From: Desulfitobacterium dehalogenans ATCC 51507
GTDB lineage: Bacteria; Bacillota; Desulfitobacteriia; Desulfitobacteriales; Desulfitobacteriaceae
Reading direction: 5' to 3'
NCBI RefSeq assembly: GCF_000243155.2
Contig: NC_018017.1
Location: forward strand, 1,426,001 to 1,490,000
DNA: 64,000 nt
Shown: piece by piece, positions 9,137-22,085 of the stretch
How the letters are laid out: each line of letters starts with the position of its first letter
Position numbering within the stretch: position 1 is the first letter of the stretch
Position numbers and translations under genes: made by a program
Notes under the pieces: model-generated
Database searches by the model: none
What the model saw: the letters and a program-made list of their open reading frames with translations, nothing else
What the model was told of the DNA's origin: nothing

Positions 9137-10417
9137 ATGAAAAAGGAATATCGGTTTAAATACGGTGAAGGGTATCAGGAGTTTCTACTCAATCCGCAGA
9201 ATGTCATCCAGGAGCTCCAGGCCAAAGATATTCAGCCTTTAGAGGATGTGGTGAAGGAAATCGAGAGGGTTCTCGATACTCCCATCGCCTCTCCGTCTTT
9301 CAATACCTTGTTTAAGGCAGGGGATCAGGTTACGATTGTCGTCAGTGATATCACACGTCTGGTAAAGCTTCATGAATATCTGCCCACGGTTGTGAATCGA
9401 TTGAATACCTTAGGCATTCCGGATAAGGATATCCTTATCCTAACGGCTACCGGAACTCACCGGGGACAAACTCCTGAGGAGAAAAAGAAGATTGTCGGAG
9501 AGGAGGTGTATTCACGAATTGAGGTGGTGGATCATGACTGCGACCATTCCGAAATGGTACATGTGGGAACAACTCCTCGGGGCACGGAAGTGGTTGTCAA
9601 CCGCTTCGTTGTGGACCGGAAGGTGATTCTCACCGGAGGAATTGTTCATCACCTGATGGCCGGCTTCGGCGGTGGGCGCAAGTCCATTCTTCCAGGGGTA
9701 GCAAGCCGGAAGACCATTGCTCAAAACCATTTGCATTCCTTGGATCCCAATGCAGAGCAGTCCAATCCATTGATCGGGGTAGGAGCACTTATCGATAACC
9801 CTTTGCATGAAGATATGGTCGATGCGACACGCTTTGTCAATCCTGAATTCCTCATTAATACCATTATCCATACGGATGGCCGGATTGCTAAATTTGTGGC
9901 CGGACACTGGCTAAAAGCTTGGGAAGAAGGCTGTACATGGGCTGATGAGAATTATGGAGTACCGATTGAGAAGAAGGCTGATCTCGTCATTGCCAGCTGT
10001 GGGGGTTTCCCTAAAGATATTTCTCTCTATCAGAGTACCAAAACCTTATTTAATGCGGCTCTTGCCGTCAAGCCCGGCGGTACGATTCTTATTCTGGCTG
10101 AGTGCCGGGAAGGGGCCGGCGCAGATGAGTTTTTCGGATGGAATGAGCCCCTTAAGGAAAAAGTCCTTGATCCAGAGCTGCGCAAGAACTTTACCATTCC
10201 TGGATATATCTTCTATGCCGCAGTGGAATCAGCCCGTAAGGCAAAAGTCATTCTCTACTCGGAGATTGAGCCGAAGTTGGTCAAACCCATGGGAGTAATC
10301 GGGGTCAATTCATTTCAAGAGGCCATACAATTGGCTCAAATTGATCAGGAAAAACAAGATGTAATTTTAATGCCCTATGGGGGGGCAACCATACCTTTGT
10401 ACCAAAAGGGTAACTAA
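9137..10417 (+). CDS. LarA-family nickel-pincer racemase/epimerase homologue
   Basis: 426 residues of the lactate racemase LarA family. The key positions match well: SDITR at 70-74, GTHRG with His108, HHLMAGFGGGRKS with His171/172 and Lys182 (the residue that carries the pyridinium thioamide pincer cofactor), and NHLH near 197-200. Members interconvert 2-hydroxyacid stereoisomers using nickel; substrates differ among homologues, so lactate is only one possibility. AGGGAGGG precedes the start. The following symporter gene suggests uptake and racemisation of a hydroxyacid. The larB/C/E cofactor genes are not in this window. Confidence 0.85.
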   Translation: MKKEYRFKYGEGYQEFLLNPQNVIQELQAKDIQPLEDVVKEIERVLDTPIASPSFNTLFKAGDQVTIVVSDITRLVKLHEYLPTVVNRLNTLGIPDKDILILTATGTHRGQTPEEKKKIVGEEVYSRIEVVDHDCDHSEMVHVGTTPRGTEVVVNRFVVDRKVILTGGIVHHLMAGFGGGRKSILPGVASRKTIAQNHLHSLDPNAEQSNPLIGVGALIDNPLHEDMVDATRFVNPEFLINTIIHTDGRIAKFVAGHWLKAWEEGCTWADENYGVPIEKKADLVIASCGGFPKDISLYQSTKTLFNAALAVKPGGTILILAECREGAGADEFFGWNEPLKEKVLDPELRKNFTIPGYIFYAAVESARKAKVILYSEIEPKLVKPMGVIGVNSFQEAIQLAQIDQEKQDVILMPYGGATIPLYQKGN

Positions 10418-12075: not shown

Positions 12076-12360
12076 ATGAGTTTTCAGGGTGTGATCATAG
12101 GAATCATGGTTTTTATCATAATCGGTGTCTTTCATCCCATCGTTATCAAGGGAGAGTACTATTTCGGAAAAAGGATCTGGCCCTTATTCTTGGTCGCAGG
12201 GGTGGTACTGATCGGCGCTTCTCTATTCATCACGAATAATATGCTTTCCGCAATCGTCAGTGTGACAGGCTTCTCCTGTCTCTGGAGTATCCATGAAATT
12301 CTTGAGCAGGAAAAACGGGTGAAAAAAGGCTGGTTTCCAAGCAATCCGAACAGAAAGTGA
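12076..12360 (+). CDS. Small membrane protein, DUF4491-like
   Basis: 94 residues with three hydrophobic helices (about residues 5-21, 36-52 and 56-70) and a basic C terminus (KKGWFPSNPNRK). The pattern GxFHPxVIKGEYYFGKRIWP resembles the DUF4491 family, from memory. Function unknown; probably an inner-membrane protein. Strong AGGAGGGG site before the ATG. Monocistronic by appearance. Confidence 0.7.
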   Translation: MSFQGVIIGIMVFIIIGVFHPIVIKGEYYFGKRIWPLFLVAGVVLIGASLFITNNMLSAIVSVTGFSCLWSIHEILEQEKRVKKGWFPSNPNRK

Positions 12361-12372
12361 AGGAAAAGAGGT

Positions 12373-12398
12373 CAAATTATGCATCGATGCATAATTTG
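12373..12398. repeat. Perfect 26-base palindrome
   Basis: The 13-base arms CAAATTATGCATC and GATGCATAATTTG are exact reverse complements with no loop. It lies 13 bases after the DUF4491-like gene. With no loop and no T run, a DNA operator-like site is more likely than a terminator, but no regulator is known. Confidence 0.75.
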
Positions 12399-12492
12399 GG
12401 CTGCTGGATTTTCCTATTTATAGGGGATGCTTTTATTGTGGGCAAAATATTTTTAAATCGATAGAACTTCTGTGAAATGTCAAAATATTCTG

Positions 12493-12519
12493 TTGACTTA
12501 CGGGGGTACTTGTTATAAT
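12493..12519 (+). promoter_or_regulatory. Candidate promoter of the cobalamin riboswitch transcript
   Basis: TTGACT (12493-12498) and TATAAT (12514-12519) with a TG extension before the -10; the spacer is short at 15 bases. It lies about 40 bases before the riboswitch P1 stem. Confidence 0.5.
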
Positions 12520-12554
12520 CTGGTTATAAGGGAAAGTTAAGGAAAACAGCTAAA

Positions 12555-12722
12555 TACGATGCGGAATAGGGTTGCTTAATGGCATTAATAGTGAACTCCG
12601 GTGCGAAGCCGGGACAGCCCCGCTACTGTATGAAGGACGAGTCCCTTAGAGGATCCACTGGTCGAAGCCGGGAAGGCAAGGGATGAGGATGAGTTCAAGT
12701 CAGGATACCTGCCCTATTCCAG
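12555..12722 (+). promoter_or_regulatory. Cobalamin (AdoCbl) riboswitch
   Basis: Contains the core GGTGCGAAGCCGGGACAG-like segment, AGCCCCGCTACTGT, and the B12 box AGTCAGGATACCTGCC. The closing stem GGAATAGGG (12563-12571) pairs with CCCTATTCC (12712-12720). Such elements sense adenosylcobalamin and shut off B12 or cobalt uptake genes. Here no such gene follows: after a GGGGAGGG site the frame stops within eight codons, and a terminator comes at 12811. Confidence 0.93.
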
Positions 12723-12810
12723 AAGCACAAGTTTTCGGGGAGGGAACAAGTGTGGCGAATTTAAGGGTAGTATGATATTACATCTTTGCCTTTTTACATG
12801 ATGTTTGCCG

Positions 12811-12842
12811 GAGCCGAATTCATCGGCTCTTTTTTATTATTT
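12811..12842 (+). terminator. Intrinsic terminator behind the cobalamin riboswitch
   Basis: GAGCCGA / TCGGCTC with a five-base loop, then TTTTTTATTATTT. It would stop riboswitch transcripts before the next gene and could be the expression platform or the leftover end of a lost target gene. Confidence 0.85.
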
Positions 12843-12872
12843 AAGAAGCTTAACTTATAGGGAGCACCAGAA

Positions 12873-13568
12873 ATGGTTGATGTCCATAAAGTATATATTG
12901 AAGGTGATGAGATGCGATATTATTGTTTAGAAATTGATGAAGGAAACAAGAAAAAATACGCCTATGGGTTAAGTGTAACCGAATGGCCAAGAAAATGGAT
13001 TCTTTGCTCCAAATGCCAGAGAGAATGGAAAAAAAGCGTAATGCATGACTTTGGAACAGATACCCCTATTGTTTTGTCTAATGATAATTATCCTGATTTT
13101 CTCTGGTTTTATATTAATCATATTTCAGAGAAAGCTAAAGACGTTCTGGAAAGAGAAAAGATTACGGGCTATAGACTAGAGAAAGCCCCTGTGTTATCCT
13201 TCAATGATTTAACTGATATGCAACTTAAGGAGCTCCGGCGCCATGGTACCCGGGTCAATAAAATACCCACAGTCCCGCCTGCCTATTACAAACTTCATGT
13301 TGATGTGTGCGCCGAACTTTATAGAAAATCAAACATTATTCTGCTCGATAGTTGCTCGGAATGCGGCTATGAAACATACCTTGCCGAGAGCAAGGAGCGG
13401 ATTGAATCGAGAGATAGCCTTTTTTTGAGGGGGGAGTCTCTCAATGGAATAGATCTGTTCAGGGCCAAGGGCTACGGTGTTAATATCTATTGCTCTGAAA
13501 GATTTGTTGAAGCCTATCAAAGACACGAGCTGACAGGATTGATGTTTACTGAGATTGTAGTGCTTTGA
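12873..13568 (+). CDS. Unrecognised protein with two CxxC pairs (double-CXXCG-like)
   Basis: 231 residues, cytoplasmic. Cysteine pairs at CSKC (about residue 47) and CSECG (about residue 161) are the obvious feature and could bind one zinc. The spacing recalls the Myxococcus double-CXXCG family that includes Sit immunity proteins; this is a memory-based suggestion, not established. GGGAGC precedes the ATG. It stands alone between the cobalamin riboswitch terminator and the Moco-type leader, and is AT-richer than its neighbours. Confidence 0.55.
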   Translation: MVDVHKVYIEGDEMRYYCLEIDEGNKKKYAYGLSVTEWPRKWILCSKCQREWKKSVMHDFGTDTPIVLSNDNYPDFLWFYINHISEKAKDVLEREKITGYRLEKAPVLSFNDLTDMQLKELRRHGTRVNKIPTVPPAYYKLHVDVCAELYRKSNIILLDSCSECGYETYLAESKERIESRDSLFLRGESLNGIDLFRAKGYGVNIYCSERFVEAYQRHELTGLMFTEIVVL

Positions 13569-13734
13569 GGCTGCTGCATAACTGGGCGGAAGATAACCTA
13601 ACATAACTAGATATAATGTAAAATAAAATCAAGATGTTTATTTTTCTGTTGATTTATGTTATTTATGTTTGTGGGAAGAAACATCGGGAATTAAAATTTC
13701 GGATTGTCCGATTATTAGCATAAAGACAAAACTG

Positions 13735-13865
13735 AATAGTTTCCGAGCTCATTCGTCTAAAAGAATCTCTCATGACGGAAGAGCCTGAGCAAACCGCTCA
13801 CGGGGTCAGTTAGGAAACCAGCTGGCCTTCACTTATGAAAAGGAAGCAGAAAGGACAAATTTGAC
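13735..13865 (+). promoter_or_regulatory. Moco/Tuco-type riboswitch (molybdenum cofactor RNA motif)
   Basis: The leader carries segments I recognise from the Moco RNA motif: TTCCGAGC, CTCATGACGGAA, a TGAGC/GCTCA hairpin, and a GGAAACC tetraloop-like stretch before CAGCTGGCC. It sits in front of a terminator and an operon with MoeA-like and nitrogenase-like genes, which fits sensing of molybdenum or tungsten cofactor. The exact edges are approximate. Confidence 0.65.
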
Positions 13866-13901
13866 AGAGTCGGCTCTGGCTTTTGTTGTTTTCGCTATCG
13901 G

Positions 13902-13937
13902 GCGGTTTGCTTTTAGAAAGGCAAGCCGCTTTTTTCT
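13902..13937 (+). terminator. Terminator in the leader of the nitrogenase-like operon
   Basis: GCGGTTTGC / GCAAGCCGC stem, ten-base loop, then TTTTTT. Position between the Moco-type motif and the first gene suggests transcription control by the riboswitch. The 130 bases from here to the NifH-like gene hold no gene except a possible 11-codon reading frame at 13953-13988 preceded by AGGAG. Confidence 0.8.
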
Positions 13938-14068
13938 TTATAGGAGAAAACTATGGCGAACAGATCAGGCAGCGTAGTCGCCAACTGATTTGACTGCTGT
14001 CAAATTTGAACCAAAATAACGGCAGGAATGTGCGGGAGAAATTCCACCGGATAAGGAGTGCATAAAAA

Positions 14069-14827
14069 ATGATCAGAGCAGCTATTTACGGCAAAGGAGG
14101 GATTGGCAAATCCACTACCACATCCAATTTGGCGGTAGCCTTGAGTGAGATGGGTTATAAAGTGATGCAGATCGGCTGCGATCCCAAGGCGGATTCCACA
14201 AGAATGTTGACCGGAGGGAGGCCCATTCAAACCGTATTGGAGCTGGTGCGCAGCAAACGGGATGACCTGCAGGTGGGGGACTTTGTGCAAGAGGGATATA
14301 ACGGAGTTCTTTGTGTGGAAGCCGGCGGTCCCATGCCGGGTATCGGCTGTGCCGGACGGGGAATTATCACCGCCTTTGATACCTTGGCAGAAATGAAGGC
14401 ATATGAAGTCTACCAACCGGATATTGTGCTTTACGATGTGCTGGGGGATGTGGTCTGCGGCGGGTTCGCCATGCCTTTGCGGGGAGAATATACGGATGTG
14501 GTTTTTATAATTACCTCGGGAGAGATGATGTCCATGTACGCAGCGTCCAATATCGCCGCAGCTTTGGCCAATTTCCGCAACCGGGATTATGCCCGTTACG
14601 GGGGGCTGATTCTGAACCGGCGCAATGTGGACAAGGAGATGGAGCTGGTGCAGCAGCTATCGGCGGAAACCCAGGGTGAGCTCATTTCCGTTATCCCCCG
14701 GGCGGCTGAGATACAGAGAGGGGAAGAGCAGGGCAAGACAGTCATGGAGTTATTTCCCGAAACGGAGATCGCTCAAAGTTACCGCACTTTGGCCCGGCAT
14801 TTCATTGAGGTATGCGGTCATGAGTAA
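14069..14827 (+). CDS. NifH-like nitrogenase reductase-family ATPase (intact)
   Basis: 252 residues. P-loop GKGGIGKST at 8-16 and the two cysteines that hold the 4Fe-4S cluster at the dimer interface, Cys94 (GIGCAGRG) and Cys130 ([10 protein letters not shown]), are all present. Known relatives deliver electrons to a NifDK-like partner with ATP hydrolysis. It is slightly shorter than NifH and heads an operon with D-like, K-like, MoeA-like and iron-type ABC transporter genes, so it is more likely a nitrogenase-like reductase than nitrogenase. AAGGAG precedes the ATG. It overlaps the D-like start (ATGAGTAA). No lesion is visible although most of its operon is broken. Confidence 0.88.
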
Positions 14828-15751
14828 GGGGGTGCAAAATAATCTTCTCAATTATATTCCCAACCGGAGCAGACCTAAGACTATTCTGCGCATTCCGGAG
14901 AGCCATAGTCTCCATATATGCCCCACGGCCTGCGGCCGCCGCAACGCTATACGTGCCCTGCAAAACGGGGAAAAAGAGTTTCTCTCCTTTTTATATATCG
15001 GGGAAGAGGATGCGGTTTCCGGACAATATGTTGAGAATATCGGCTGCGGTGGAAGAGCTTCTGGAGGTGCTTGAGCCGGCGCCTAAGGCCTTTGTGCTTT
15101 ACTTTAATTGTATCGATGATTTCCTGGGTACCGATGAAAAAGCACTTTTGCGAGAGCTCAAAAGCCGTTTTCTCGGACATCATTTCACAGTCTGCCATAT
15201 CAATCCCGTGGCGGCCGATGAAAAAATATCCCAGGGCATGCGCAAGCATAATCAGATGTATGAGCTGCTGGAATACACCGAGGAAAAGGACGAAGGTATT
15301 AATCTAATCGGCAATTATGTTTCTCTTGATCAGGAGAGCGAGCTCTTTGACCTTTTGGCGGACTGGGGGATTAAGAGAGTACGGGAGCTTTTTGCTTGTC
15401 GGACGTTTGAGGAATATCAAAAGATGGCGGCCAGTCGGCTGAACCTGGTACTAGTGCCCATGGGCTTGGTTGCTGCTCAAAGCATGGCGGAAAAGCTGGA
15501 CATTCCTTATTATTTCAATCCCCCTTCCTATTTATGGTTTGGACCAGGAGTACATGGCTATCGGTTATGATGGAGCCTTTTTGCTGAAGGCCAGGTATTT
15601 TGTGGATGTGTTTAATGATGAGTCCTTTTATGGGTTTCACGGTATTCGCAAGCTGATGAAGCTTATGGGAGAAGCTGTCGCCAGGGCAGCGGATTGGGGA
15701 GACCTGAAGGTGAACAGAGATGAGGGGAGCGAGCGTCCATGGAACGGTTAG
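14820..15751 (+). pseudogene. NifD-like component 1 protein, frameshifted
   Basis: Starts at ATG 14820 inside the NifH-like gene ([17 protein letters not shown]...). Homology-like protein runs through three frames: frame one to about 15040 (SGQYVENI), a second from there to about 15535 (AAVEELLEVLEPAPK ... DIPYYFNPPSYL), and a third to the stop (LDQEYMAIGYDGAFLLKAR...). So at least two frameshifts. The motif FVLYFNCIDDFLGTD fits nitrogenase component 1-type oxidoreductases. Cysteines in HICPTACGRR could be metal ligands. Probably non-functional. Confidence 0.8.
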
Positions 15752-16923
15752 CCATCTATCTCCCGCCTTTTTCCAGTGATTATTCCGGAGCCTGTTCCAC
15801 GCTCTTGAACTGAACTGTTTGATCATCATTGATGACGCCTCATGCTGTACCCGCAATTATGTCACCTAAGATGAACCCCGCTGGACGGAAAGCACGCGCA
15901 GTACCTTTGGCTCGAATCTGAGAACCATTGAAGCTGTGCTCGGGGATGAAGAACGGCTGATCAGCCAGACCATTGAAGCGGCGCAGAAGCTCAAGCCGGA
16001 ATTCATTGCCGGGCAGCCCCGTGCCGGCGATCATCGGCAGGGATATGAACGGGATCGCCCGGGAAATTGAGGCGCGCAGTGGTTTTGCGGCACTAGGCTT
16101 TGCTACCACGGGATTTTCCTATTACAACAAGGGAATTTCTGCCGCCCATTTAAAACTGCTCAAACGATTCGCCGTTTCCGGAATCTCAACAGCTTCCAAA
16201 CATGTAAATATTCTGGGCCTGACTCCGCTGGATTTCTCGGCCAACGATAACGGTAGGGATCTGATTCGTCTTCTGGAAGATAACGGCTTCCGGATTAACG
16301 GCAGTTTTTGGATGCAGACGGAGCTGGATCAGGTTCGGCGTGCCGCTTCTGCGGAGGTCAATCTGGTGGTATCCCAGTCTGGTTGGGCGGCTGCCCGGTA
16401 TCTCTACACAAACTATGGTATTCCCTATGTAGCTGCAGCTCCTTTGGGGATGAAGCACAGCCGGGTTGTATTGGAGGCTTTACGTCAGACGGCGGCGGAT
16501 AAGCAAAATCGTGTTATCAAGGGCGCCGTGGCAGAAGCCGGCGGAGATTTGCCGGTGGCCGATAAAGCGGGAGCCTTGTTGATCATCGGAGATCAGATCG
16601 TGGCCAATTCCCTTCGGGCCGCTCTCCGGCAAGCCGGTTGTGGGCAGAGCATTACCGTAGCCAGTTTTTTTGGCCTGGAGCCGGAATTGGCATTGCCTGG
16701 GGATCTCCTCCTGAAAAGCGAGAAACAGCTGATTAAGCTTCTCAGAAGCGGCATTTATACCAGGATGATCGCCGATCCCTTGATTCTCGGCCTTCCTGCC
16801 GCAGCCGGGCTTAAGGGTTATAGCCTTCCCCATCCGGCGATATCCAGCCTCCTTCATTGGCAGGATATGCCCCTTTTCATCGGCGAGGAATTTGAAAAGA
16901 CCATATTAAGTTGGAGCGATTAA
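15739..16923 (+). pseudogene. NifK-like component 1 protein, broken by two frameshifts and a stop
   Basis: Begins MERLAIYLPPFSSDYSGACS at 15739, shifts frame near 15800, then reads ELNCLIIIDDASCCTRNYVT to a TAA at 15867-15869 followed in frame by DEPRWTESTRSTFGSNLR, shifts again near 16010, then is open to 16923 (from VPAIIGRDMNGIAREIEARS). The open C-terminal part is 300 residues with a Rossmann-like component 1 fold. Conserved Cys in ACS and SCCTRNY resemble P-cluster-type positions. Overlaps the D-like end by 13 bases as in an intact operon. Confidence 0.8.
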
Positions 16924-16959: not shown

Positions 16960-18044
16960 ATGAGTGAAAAAAAGCATTTACCTGTCACCCGAGCAGAGGC
17001 TTTGGAGCTGTATTCGGTGCCTGGAATCGCGGTCCGCTCCAATGATTTTAGCAACGGCCTGCCGGATACTTCAGGCTGGGTGAAAGGTGTTGACTATGTT
17101 CAGGCGGATACCGGGGATGATTTTCCTGATGAGTACGATACGGTCATCCCGGTGGAGGAGATTTACTATGACAGCGAGGGCCGACTGGCATTGGCTAAGG
17201 GTCTTACCTTTAAAAAAGGGGATTGTGTAGGAGCGGCAGGGACAGCGATTCGTCAGGGGGACCCGATTGTGGAAGCTCATGTCAGGCTGACCCCTTTGCA
17301 TCTGACTATGCTGGCTCTGGGCGGAATTTATCACCTGGAAGTTATCAGAAAGCCTCAAGTCATTTATATACCCACCGGGAGTGAGCTGATCCATGCAGGA
17401 ATCAAACCGGAGCGCGGTCAAACCATCGAGAGCAAAAGTCTGATGGTAAGTGCCTTGCTGCGGCAATGGTGAGCGGAGGTGACCTGTTATCCGATCATCA
17501 AGGATAAACCTGAGGAATTGGCGGAAGCCCTGGATAAGGCATTGAACGTTGCGGATTTAGTTTTGATCAATGGCGGATCCTCCAAAGGCGCTGAGGATTT
17601 CAATACCGCTCTCCTTGAGAAAAAGGCCGATCTTTTCCGGCACGGTATCAGGGCTATTCCCGGCAGGCCGGTGGGTATTGCTATGATCGGTGGGAAACCG
17701 GTGATCAATATGCCCGGACCTACTTTTGCCACCTTTCTAGCCATGGACTGGTGTGTATCCGGTCTGATCCATCATAATTATGGGCTGACGGCCCCCCGGC
17801 GGCCGAAGCTTAAAGTCCGTTTAACTGAGCCCCTTCATAAGCGGCCGGATTATGAATTTTATTTCAGGTTGATTTTGGATAGGAAAGAAGGGGGCTATGA
17901 AGCAACTCCCATGGCTGGGACCGAAACCTACCCGATTCTCTGCTGCAAATGGACGCTCTTTTGATCGCACCCATCGGTATTTCCGAATATCAAGCCGGGG
18001 AAGAGGTTGAAGTGGAGCTGATTTGCGGGTCTGAGCATCTTTGA
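16960..18044 (+). pseudogene. MoeA-like molybdopterin molybdotransferase-family protein, broken
   Basis: AAAAGGAG precedes ATG 16960 (MSEKKHLPVTRAEALELY). The reading frame resembles MoeA, which inserts molybdate into adenylated molybdopterin, but its N terminus is shortened. It is interrupted by TGA at 17470-17472, where MoeA has a Gly-like position (LLRQW-stop-AEVT, consistent with GGA changed to TGA), continues in the same frame, and shifts frame near 17930 before the last domain (SLLQMDALLIAPIGISEYQ). Motifs INGGSSKG and GPTFATF in the middle are family-like. Confidence 0.75.
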
Positions 18045-18079
18045 ACGAGACTTCATTCAGTGATAGAGGAGAATCAATC

Positions 18080-19101
18080 TTGAAGCACACAAACAGTGAG
18101 TATTTCGCAGTGAAAATCATGGTGCTGGTCGCTTTGACGGTGGTACTTTTTTTCGCCTCATTTCTAGTCGGGCGGTATCCGTTCCCCCCCAGACGGTTCT
18201 GGATATTATCCTCTCCAAATTCCTGCCGATCCCCCAGTATTGGGATAGCACCCTGGAAACCGTCGTCCTCCAGGTGCGCCTGCCCAGGATTGCCCTCGGT
18301 ATTCTGGTGGGAGGGGCCCTGTCCGTTTCCGGTGCTTCTTACCAGACCCTGTTTAAAAATCCCATGGTCTCTCCGGACCTTTTGGGAGTGTCGGCAGGGG
18401 CAGGTTTCGGGGCGGCCTTGGCCATGATCAACGATGGATCATGGTGGCAGATTCAGACCCCGGCATTTACCTTTGGGATGATTGCCGTGGTGGCCGCTTA
18501 TGTGATCGCTTATGTCTTTGAGAAGCAGACGATTACGATCCTGATCCTGGGCGGGATTGTTGTCTCCAGTCTATTCCAGTCCCTGCTTTCGATTGTCAAG
18601 ACTTTAGCCGATACGGAGAACCAATTGCCGGCCATTACGTTCTGGCTGATGGGGGGACTGGGCAAAGGGGCCAATCAGGATGTTCTCCTCATGCTGCCGG
18701 CTATGCTGCTCTCCATGGCCCTCATCTTCCTGTTCCGTCATCAGATCAATGCTCTGGCTGTCGGAGAAGATGAAGCGGCCACTATGGGTGTCAATGTACC
18801 CCTGGTCAAGCTGGTGGTGGTCTGTAGCTCCACCCTGATGACCGTCTGTTCGGTCAGCATCTGCGGGATTATCGGCTGGGTGGCCATGGTCGTACCCCAT
18901 ATTGCCCGGATGCTCACCGGTGCCAACTACTCCAAATTGGTTACCGCTTCCTTTTTTATCGGGGGAATCTTCCTGCTGATCATTGATAATATTATCCGCG
19001 GTGTGGAGGGAGTTGAACTCCCCCTTGGCGTACTGACTGCTTTGGTGGGGACTCCCGTCTTTGTCCTGCTCCTGTCCAGAGTGAAAAAGGGGTGGTCTTG
19101 A
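18080..19101 (+). pseudogene. FecCD-type ABC transporter permease, frameshifted
   Basis: TTG start with GAGGAG before it. The first frame encodes a membrane segment and FASFLVGRYP; near 18180, beside a run of seven Cs, the frame shifts and homology goes on as PPQTVLDIILSKFLPIPQYW, then ILVGGALSVSGASYQTLFKN, the FecCD hallmark, through eight or so membrane segments. One missing G would restore GRYPVPPQTV. Relatives import iron-siderophore, B12 or molybdate. The open part from 18274 (275 residues) lacks the first segments. Confidence 0.82.
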
Positions 19102-19895
19102 TGCTGAGCGTCAAAGAACTAAGCTTTTATTACCAGCCTGAGCGAATCATCCTTAGAGATATTTCCTTTGAGCTGAACAGTCATGACATCCTCTGTCTGC
19201 TGGGGCCTAACGGAACCGGGAAAACAACGCTGCTCAGGTGCATCCTTTCTCTCCATAAAATGAAAAGGGGCAGGATTACCCTGAACGGACTGGATTTAAA
19301 TAAAATTCCCCCTAAAAAGCGGGCGGAGCTGATGGCTTATGTTCCCCAGGCTACCACTGTAGCTTTTCCATATGAAGCGGCAGAGATCGTGCAGATGGGA
19401 AGGGTGGCGAATCTGGCCCTGGGGGCCCGGCCCTCAAGCCGGGACCGAAAACTGGCTGAAGAAGCCATGGAGAAGATGGGAATTCTGCATATGCGAAGCT
19501 ATCCCTTTAATGAGATGAGCGGCGGGGAAAAGCAGATGGTGCTGATCGCCAGGGCTATTGCCCAGCAGGCCGGAATCCTGGTCATGGACGAGCCCACCGC
19601 CAATCTGGATTATTACAACCAGGTCAAAATGCTCAAGGTCATTAAAACCTTAGCCGAGCAGGGCTATGCCATCTTAATGACTTCCCATTTTCCGGATCAT
19701 GCCTTTCTGGCCTGCAGCAAAGCAGTCCTCATGCGGGATGGAGTGATCATGGCTCAAGGGCATCCTGACGATGTCGTAACCACCGGGAATCTGACCAGGC
19801 TTTACTCCACGCCGGTCTGCGTGGCTGAAGCAAGGCTGGATTCTACGGATACCACCATGAAAGTGTGTATCCCGGTTATGAATAATGAACAATAA
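19101..19895 (+). CDS. ABC transporter ATPase, iron/cobalamin/molybdate type (intact)
   Basis: 264 residues with Walker A GPNGTGKTT, signature MSGGEKQ, Walker B ILVMDEPTANLD and H-loop TSHFPDH. It overlaps the permease stop by one base (TGATG). Belongs to the FecE/BtuD-like group that pairs with FecCD permeases. The molybdate-linked context makes Mo/W or a metal complex the likely cargo (inference). Appears intact, though its permease partner is broken. Confidence 0.9.
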   Translation: MLSVKELSFYYQPERIILRDISFELNSHDILCLLGPNGTGKTTLLRCILSLHKMKRGRITLNGLDLNKIPPKKRAELMAYVPQATTVAFPYEAAEIVQMGRVANLALGARPSSRDRKLAEEAMEKMGILHMRSYPFNEMSGGEKQMVLIARAIAQQAGILVMDEPTANLDYYNQVKMLKVIKTLAEQGYAILMTSHFPDHAFLACSKAVLMRDGVIMAQGHPDDVVTTGNLTRLYSTPVCVAEARLDSTDTTMKVCIPVMNNEQ

Positions 19896-19910: not shown

Positions 19911-20489
19911 ATGAAACTGAAAACAAAACTTTTTGCATTGCTCATGGCCGCTATGCTTGCCGTGAGCCTGGTCGGCTGCGGACAAAGCACTCCGGCCTCC
20001 TCAAATCCGCCGGCGGCAGGAGGCGAAGCTGCTCCAACGGAACGCACCGTCACCGATATGGCAGGACGCACCGTCACTCTGCCTGCGGAAGTTAAAACGG
20101 TGGGGACCATCGGTTCCATCGGTGTCCTTAACGCTTTTGTGGAAACCCTGAGCGCTGGGGAAAGAATCGCTAACGAAGGTTCCCCTTCCTTTGTCAAAAG
20201 CCCCAGCTGGGAAAAATATCAGTACAAGTTCACACCGCAGATTAAAGATCTGAAACCATTCCAAGGCGCGGACAGCGAACTGCTCATGGAAAATATCCTG
20301 GCAGCCAATCCCGATATCTGTCTGACCATGAGTTCCGACCTGACGGAACAACTTGAAAAACATGGGGAAGGGGCTTATGTGGTCGATAAGCGCAAACAGG
20401 TGACCAGGGTACTGGAAGGAATGAATCTGGAGGTTACTTGTGAAATGCCGGATTATCAGCGGGTTGAATCATGTCATACACAATTTTGA
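19911..20489 (+). pseudogene. Substrate-binding lipoprotein of the ABC transporter, 3' truncated
   Basis: Signal peptide with lipobox (VSLVGCGQ) then a low-complexity linker and a PF01497-type binding domain (TVTDMAGRTVTLPAEVKTV, IVLNAF-like, EN ILAANPDI). Only 192 residues, about half the normal length. The frame runs past the convergent tyrS stop codon and ends inside it, so the 3' half has been removed by a deletion or rearrangement that joined this operon to tyrS. AAAGGAGAGG precedes the ATG. Confidence 0.85.
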
Positions 20490-21740: not shown

Positions 21741-22085
21741 AAAAAAACTCCCGCCCTTCATTTCCAGAAGGACGAGAGTGTGCTCCCGTGTTACCACCTT
21801 ACATTTACGAACAACTCGCATTGTCCGCCTTTTCGAGTACGCCATAAATATGGGTGATACTCTAGCACTATAACGTGTGCAGGAAACCGTCACAGCCTAC
21901 TAAAAACGTTCGGTGTGAAGCTCAAAGAGGTATTCATAACCAGCCTGCCAAGCGCCTCTCATCATCCGGCAACTTTCTGTTTGCGGTACAGGTTACTACT
22001 TATTCTTATCACAGCTTTTGCTCTTATACTCCGAAATGCAGGAAGTCCTGCAAGTCTTTGTTATGCAGATATTAAATTAGGATAT
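21741..22085 (-). promoter_or_regulatory. T-box leader of tyrS
   Basis: Reading the minus strand: stem I with GAATACCTC, whose TAC (21930-21932) is the tyrosine specifier codon; then the T-box AAGGTGGTAACACGGGAGCA (21781-21800); then the terminator CTCTCGTCCTTC / GAAGGGCGGGAG (21748-21778) followed by seven Ts. Uncharged tRNA-Tyr is expected to stabilise the antiterminator and allow tyrS expression. Confidence 0.92.

Follow-up and report, generated by a model that had tools for sequence, protein, structure and literature searches.

The window analysed here is a stretch of 64,000 nucleotides of the Desulfitobacterium dehalogenans ATCC 51507 genome (NC_018017.1, positions 1,426,001 to 1,490,000), and the locus of interest within it comprises a Moco riboswitch with a terminator, followed on the same strand by the remains of a nitrogenase-like operon (Table 1). 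A cmscan of the whole window returned three RNAs above threshold, namely a cobalamin riboswitch, the Moco RNA and a T-box leader. Both here and at the congener locus used as a reference below, the cobalamin riboswitch is placed upstream of the Moco RNA with one gene in between, a double-CXXCG gene that is an odd target for a B12 switch. The T-box leader stands before a tyrosyl-tRNA synthetase gene and is ordinary. The LarAH10 racemase gene has as its downstream neighbour a sodium/solute symporter superfamily gene scoring below the cut-off.

Table 1. Features of the riboswitch locus and its surroundings, in positions of the window
Feature	Position	Strand	Basis and remarks
LarAH10 nickel-pincer racemase gene	9137-10417		569.1 vs 540 bits (NCBIfam)
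Cobalamin riboswitch	12552-12730		99.5 bits
Double-CXXCG gene	12873-13568		PF09535; weak Imm11 match
Moco riboswitch aptamer RF01055, P3-containing	13729-13861	+	cmscan 82.8 bits, gathering 36
P3 hairpin (UGAGC AAACC GCUCA)	13786-13800	+	13788-13797 is the proposed antiterminator strand
Intrinsic terminator, expression platform	13900-13935	+	Pattern scan and folding
11-codon frame MANRSGSVVAN, 5' scar of deleted moeA2-like gene	13953-13988	+	blastn vs L113
71 bases in place of 1281 bases (moeA2 body) of L113	13969-14039		blastn
nifH-like gene, intact, 252 aa	14069-14827	+	PF00142 310.6 bits; 94 % identity to L113
nifD/E-like remnant	14838-15727	+	326-base deletion at 15531/15532; further frameshift near 14962-15044
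nifK/E-like remnant	15739-16923	+	Frameshifts and stop codons in 5' third (translations, tblastn)
moeA1-like remnant	16960 (start approximate)-18041	+	About 117 bases lost near 5' end; in-frame TGA; frameshift near 17913-17934
FecCD-type permease remnant	18071-19101	+	Frameshift near 18181-18193; PF01032 262.5 bits on 3' part
ABC transporter ATPase gene, intact	19092-19895	+	PF00005 104.1 bits; 90.6 % to L113 over 265 aa
Truncated binding-protein gene fused to radical SAM gene end	19911-20489	+	About 1.6-kb deletion at 20364-20366
T-box leader	21765-22021	-	100.8 bits

A preliminary description of this locus had proposed a Moco-type riboswitch with a terminator and a NifH-like gene downstream, and had pointed to a covariance search as the means of checking it. 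That search bears out the riboswitch class: the match to RF01055 is full length (1-135), untruncated and well above the gathering score (E value 1.4e-18), and P1-P3 are intact, the cmscan alignment displaying P1, the P2 stack, P3, P4 and P5. The terminator and the NifH-like gene are also both present. The aptamer is real but begins at position 13729, six bases earlier than the 13735 originally given. Five Moco RNAs score above the cut-off in the 4.32-Mb genome, and the window copy scores best. In the scheme given in the available text of PMC2408646, RNAs with P3 form the Moco subclass and are distinguished from the Tuco (tungsten cofactor) subclass; the helices of the window RNA are intact and P3 is present, placing it in the Moco subclass, with Moco as its probable ligand. 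P3 is kept in all nine cluster-linked Moco RNAs in an alignment read by eye. RNAalifold predicted 19 pairs across these nine RNAs (the window copy included), 11 of them with both sides changed; P3 is absent from this prediction. We regard the identification as a Moco riboswitch as virtually certain.

Of the expression platforms sought for RF01055 (a terminator or sequestration of the ribosome-binding site), the window RNA possesses a terminator, which the pattern scan placed at 13900-13931 with 14 pairs counted. Terminator-like sites number seven on both strands of 12300-14100, compared with a shuffled mean of 1.5, and a promoter scan gave two sites where shuffled sequences averaged 3.9. Folding of the leader (13735-13945) gave -73.9 kcal/mol (z -3.6), a stability that none of 200 shuffles equalled; in the minimum-energy fold P3 is retained, and the 12-bp stem of the terminator runs into six U residues. 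Positions 13788-13797 of P3 are exactly complementary, over 10 bp, to positions 13902-13911 in the 5' arm of the terminator. Constrained folding gave -72.4 kcal/mol for the antiterminator and -73.9 kcal/mol for the terminator, a gap of 1.5 kcal/mol, and for a transcript that has not yet reached the 3' arm of the terminator, the antiterminator pairing is the fold predicted.

The region therefore contains an aptamer, a terminator and two predicted folds of nearly equal energy. The segment 13729-13935 is likely to be a Moco-sensing OFF riboswitch acting through transcription termination, for which we infer ligand, direction and kinetics. With Moco bound, P3 would stay folded, leaving the terminator 5' arm (13902-13913) free so that the terminator could form; without Moco, the 3' part of P3 would pair with this arm and transcription would continue. 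Such a platform would predict repression by Moco.

Comparable pairing between P3 and the terminator arm is predicted in the orthologous leader of the congener locus and in a paralogous RNA of the congener (L022). We examined the pairing in 42 Moco RNAs on their correct strands (34 loci from the searches of the genome and its relatives and eight cluster-linked RNAs). A terminator was recognised by the script in 24 of the 42, the bulged terminator of the orthologous congener leader being passed over. Among these 24 RNAs, duplexes near -23 kcal/mol were confined to the window RNA and L022, duplexes of about -17 kcal/mol were found in L017 and L029, and the means for cognate and non-cognate pairs hardly differed (-9.5 and -9.3 kcal/mol, respectively). 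A general rule that Moco RNAs build an antiterminator from P3 was rejected, as the 42-RNA test supports it only for Desulfitobacterium RNAs; the P3-antiterminator platform looks like a Desulfitobacterium variant.

The reference for an intact operon is a congener locus (L113; contig 21 of genome G002), in which a cobalamin riboswitch, a CXXCG gene and a Moco RNA precede, in this order, a nine-gene operon. This encodes MoeA2 (436 aa), NifH-like (252 aa), NifD/E-like (407 aa), NifK/E-like (398 aa) and MoeA1 (400 aa) proteins, followed by a FecCD permease, an ATPase (265 aa), a binding protein (360 aa) and an HmdB-like radical SAM protein (337 aa). The window aligns with this locus in five collinear blastn blocks, and in it only the nifH-like and ATPase genes of the operon are open from start to stop, the other seven being broken. 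The erosion consists of four larger deletions plus frameshifts and stops; tblastn and translations place frameshifts or stops in nifD, nifK, moeA1 and the permease gene, and the loss of about 1.6 kb takes in the last part of the binding-protein gene along with most of the radical SAM one. That the first gene after the riboswitch is NifH-like, as initially described, is true of the window, but in the intact operon of the congener a moeA-like gene comes first. Judged from this comparison, the ancestral target of the riboswitch is the nine-gene operon, intact in the congener and eroded here. As seven of the nine genes are broken, the products of the operon are probably no longer all made in this genome.

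MoeA1 of the congener carries MoeA_N, MoCF_biosynth and MoeA_C domains above their cut-offs and scores below the cut-off of the E. coli-type MoeA equivalog (173.3 vs 440 bits), while its MoeA2 has no MoeA_C match. Both are closest to PRK14498, which we take to be the MoeA-PBP fusion type. Such fusions are linked with tungsten in the accessible text of PMC11733289. Among the nine cluster MoeA1 proteins, eight have Arg in the PG(K/R)P motif and all nine have Ala for Ser; by its description in the portion of PMC13197769 available, the tungstate-preferring MoeA1 of Methylorubrum extorquens also has this Arg and Ala. The Ser-to-Ala signature is weak as a mark of tungsten because the other MoeA of this genome also aligns with Ala at this position. 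P3 points to Moco and the MoeA1 pocket residues resemble those of a tungstate insertase, so that the metal may be either molybdenum or tungsten. The MoeA2-like proteins have, ahead of the MoeA domain, cysteine-rich N termini (CX4CX2CX3C in L113:4946-6253 and CX3CX2CX3C in L065:14266-15540) and, in both L113 and L065, PGGK instead of PGKP.

The binding protein of the congener operon belongs to PF01497 and matches HI_1472 (MolA; 3psa, E value 2.2e-11), with iron-complex and unassigned proteins scoring better. MolABC is a molybdate/tungstate importer of the FecCD/BtuCD type. The moeA cluster at L067 adds a DUF364 protein, a family connected with heavy-metal uptake in the available text of PMC2954201. 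For the radical SAM protein the best family is HmdB, below the TIGR03957 cut-off (112.1 bits in L113 and 119.3 in L065 vs 320.9), and a CX5CX2C motif is found in three of these radical SAM proteins.

We gathered relatives of the NifH-like protein by a scan of genome contigs (48 loci) and by searching 61 related genomes. Nine clusters contain moeA1 (the window, L113, L065-L070 and L097), and a Moco RNA occurs within the fetched stretch in six of them, compared with two of the 20 counted clusters without an adjacent moeA (Fisher p 0.004, rising to 0.009 when the window and L113 are treated as one case; the loci share descent, so p serves as a guide). Moco RNAs were found beside clusters of this kind in the window, L113, L065, L066, L068, L070, L071 and L138, the one at L071 being divergent from a cluster that has no adjacent moeA. 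The moeA clusters L067, L069 and L097 returned neither a Moco RNA nor another family even at an E value of 0.1. The other 18 counted loci without moeA are L095, L116, L086 and L099 and a further fourteen taken from a phylum sample. Of the 398 genomes in that sample, 16 match the K profile at an E value of 1e-90, and the fourteen are those that remain once this genome and G002 are set apart; they yielded no Moco RNA and no MoeA1 match near the K gene. Outside the Fisher table, no Moco RNA was found in the scanned loci L072-L080, L082-L085, L087-L089, L091-L094, L098, L100, L101, L103, L110, L115, L139-L141 and L156-L164, and the Moco scan left out L041-L064, L081, L090, L096, L102, L104-L107, L109, L111, L112 and L117. 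Contig coordinates had suggested Moco RNAs near L085, L098, L101 and L103, which were rejected when cmscan of the loci themselves returned none, the contig numbers having failed to correspond. Approached from the riboswitch side, the 34 Moco RNA loci (about 1.5 kb on each side) gave a NifH-like match only at the window's own, while a FecCD gene directly follows the Moco RNA in three more (L007, L011 and L015).

L138 (contig 60 of G111) has two Moco RNAs, with three more on the same contig, and the gene after its FecCD-ATPase-D-K series starts like a DUF4213 protein (judged by eye); the Sporobacter termitidis genome containing L065 (G061) has 16 matches, eight of them on one contig. Among the NifH-like relatives, one (L100, 55 %) comes from Photobacterium lutimaris (Vibrionaceae), outside the Clostridia-rich set.

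The recurrence of the pairing between Moco RNA and nifH-like cluster in other genera ties the operon to Mo/W cofactor status, as had been suggested from the window alone, and we consider a link to Mo/W cofactor supply very probable. The explanation we favour (probability roughly 0.68) combines a Moco OFF switch with a nine-gene operon serving Mo/W acquisition, cofactor metalation and an ATP-driven reductase, and we infer that in its intact form the operon answers a shortage of Moco. Molybdenum or tungsten species would enter through the importer and the MoeA-like proteins would insert the metal into molybdopterin, while the NifHDK-like complex would reduce an imported metal complex or a cofactor intermediate in an ATP-driven reaction. 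The last step is the least certain, and the assignment of the nitrogenase-like reductase to metal acquisition is put forward only tentatively.

An alternative, which we consider unlikely, is that the riboswitch serves only the moeA genes and the importer, with the nifHDK-like genes as passengers employed, for example, in the reduction of a sulfur compound or a tetrapyrrole. It would account for moeA2 being the first gene after the RNA in the congener, for a Moco RNA standing before a MoeA2-type gene in a 3.1-kb locus without nifH (L026) and for the lack of a Moco RNA in 18 of the 20 counted clusters without moeA. It fits poorly with L065 and L066, where the nifH-like gene directly follows the Moco RNA, and with L138, where the RNA heads FecCD, ATPase, D and K genes and moeA is absent from the fetched stretch. 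The locus L108 of Pelotomaculum terephthalicicum, which lies outside the Fisher table, has two Moco RNAs. One of them heads a same-strand series (L108:4591-11672) of binding protein, FecCD, ATPase and nifH-like genes and two further genes, the last with a cysteine-rich NifK-like start (judged by eye); the other is at 1883-2001 on the opposite strand, and the locus gave no moeA match. The H tree argues in the same direction, as the Moco label (eight rows, L108 included) requires five changes compared with 7.8 in shuffles, only one of 500 being as low; this 83-row tree was built by a quick method with SH-aLRT support only and carries a long-branch warning, and many of its other rows are unscanned for riboswitches. 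L108 is placed in another part of the tree, beside a large nifH group of relatives, and as a case outside the moeA clade it both lowers the passenger reading and favours a more general class of reductase.

Such a class is also suggested by a further clade, in which nifHDK-like and FecBCD genes are accompanied by a different riboswitch. The order-level K search gave eight matches weaker than 245 bits (the window's own second fragment left out), and a cobalamin riboswitch lies upstream on the same strand in seven of these eight loci. It directly precedes the matched H in L156 (two in tandem), L157, L158 and L161 (a partial match); it is separated from H by Nik/Opp-like transporter genes or a remnant in L140 and in L159 (tandem). 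In L160, it stands ahead of an H-fusion gene other than the matched one, the matched K being preceded by a gene that resembles truA by eye, and L162 has no cobalamin riboswitch. L140 and L156-L159 come from close relatives in one genus, so the series amounts to about three or four independent cases. Six cobalamin rows of the H tree fall on one side of a branch with support of 94. One of these loci (L159, contig 3 of G026) has an H split in two and a truncated permease, an independent decay of a related cluster. By clade, then, the Moco RNA accompanies the moeA clade, with L108 elsewhere, and the cobalamin riboswitch the further clade. NifHDK-like proteins with FecBCD might accordingly form a general class of ATP-driven reductases acquiring metals or metal cofactors, the kind being told by the riboswitch, and in the Moco clade scarce Moco may switch on the insertion of another oxyanion, tungstate for instance; we regard this extension as doubtful. 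We found no literature joining nitrogenase-like genes with a cobalamin riboswitch, in a search mostly without subscription papers and supplements.

It appears decidedly unlikely that the locus is no wreck and that the nifH-like gene left in this genome still works with the riboswitch, for a new purpose. The aptamer and terminator are intact, as are the nifH-like and ATPase genes, and the dN/dS of the nifH-like gene relative to the congener is 0.06. The nifD, nifK, moeA1, permease and binding-protein genes are nevertheless broken, moeA2 has been lost together with most of the radical SAM gene, and the genome has no second NifH-like match at an E value of 1e-20. The dN/dS value is similar to those of the other, broken pieces (0.05-0.24) and of the TyrRS control (0.094), so continued use of the nifH-like gene is not decided by it; low values mostly reflect the time before decay.

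We find it hardly credible that the operon encodes a true nitrogenase, with molybdenum status gating nitrogen fixation, although it probably corresponds to what the available text of PMC3306737 calls a putative nif operon (Nif operon III). The NifH-like protein keeps the P-loop and both cluster cysteines. It scores below the NCBIfam nifH equivalog cut-off (330.4 vs 394.35 bits) and also below those of CfbC (321 vs 402), BchL (213.1 vs 345.15) and BchX (169.5 vs 331.2). PF00148 was detected in D and K of the congener (80.6 and 106.6 bits), the D profile matches NifE and NifD chains, and the K profile matches NifE, NifD and BchB chains. AlphaFold models of D and K from L065 (mean pLDDT 84.1 and 76.7, respectively) match nitrogenase component 1 folds with a Foldseek probability of 1.00, K being closest to BchB of DPOR. 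Invariant cysteines number two in D (11 sequences) and one in K (12 sequences), and neither alignment has a Cys where the aligned NifE or NifD has one. That position is the FeMo-co ligand, and the D subunit does not display the ligand cysteine. The Dhaf_1539/1540-type sequences are described in the consulted part of PMC3464626 as a clade without FeMo-co ligands, for which it proposes metal transport coupled to cofactor assembly, and PMC3306737 itself, in its available text, allows other functions for such operons.

The idea that the 11-codon frame is a leader peptide acting in attenuation or translational coupling, suggested originally as an extra layer of control and prompted by its plausible ribosome site (AGGAG) and its place between the terminator and the nifH-like gene, can practically be set aside, as blastn against L113 identifies a deletion scar: the block matching window 12481-13968 to L113 3510-4960 includes the moeA2 start (L113 4946), on which the frame begins, its remainder lies in the replacement stretch, and homology resumes at window 14040 (L113 6242).

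Many anaerobes have orphan nitrogenase-like operons, to which the label nif is frequently given and which at times are read as a sign of nitrogen fixation; a riboswitch is direct evidence of the cofactor served by an operon of this kind. If the link to the Mo/W cofactor is borne out, one clade would shift from nitrogen fixation to Mo/W cofactor supply, and a testable role in metal acquisition would be suggested for nitrogenase-like enzymes. The locus also carries a warning, in that nifH in genomes of the D. dehalogenans type is the leftover of a broken operon.

The riboswitch family itself is already known. Compared with RF01055 as presented in the available text of PMC2408646, the window RNA has the same sequence, helices and, as in some members, terminator platform, and it shares P3 with the Moco subclass; an antiterminator built from P3 was not seen in that text. 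The targets named in its abstract are Moco synthesis, molybdate transport and Moco enzymes, whereas the target here is a nitrogenase-like operon, and in the text at hand the word 'nitrogenase' appears solely within a reference title. Eight Moco RNAs are reported there for D. hafniense, and the orthologous D. hafniense RNA is probably in the supplementary list of that paper. The operon resembles Nif operon III of D. hafniense DCB-2 (Dhaf_1537-1545), described in the accessible text of PMC3306737 as having nine genes, with ABC transporter genes in the operons; two of the nine, Dhaf_1539/1540, appear in the consulted part of PMC3464626 as a pair of NifD/E-like and NifK/N-like proteins. By gene number and description, the operon at L113 is probably Nif operon III. 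PMC3306737 treats Nif operon III as a possible nif operon, and 'riboswitch' has no occurrences in its available text; our literature search, mostly without subscription papers and supplements, found no link of this operon to a riboswitch. The transport genes resemble MolABC (HI1470-1472) in forming a FecCD-type importer and differ in that other PF01497 proteins beat HI_1472. Finally, the operon is reminiscent of the group IV systems CfbCD, MarHDK and IsrHDK and of group V DPOR, which, in the available text of PMC11423573, likewise pair an ATPase reductase with a component 1 fold, with Mar and Isr accompanied by a radical SAM partner as in the operon here. Unlike these group IV and V systems, its D and K proteins are about 400 aa long with few invariant cysteines and are linked to MoeA and FecBCD.
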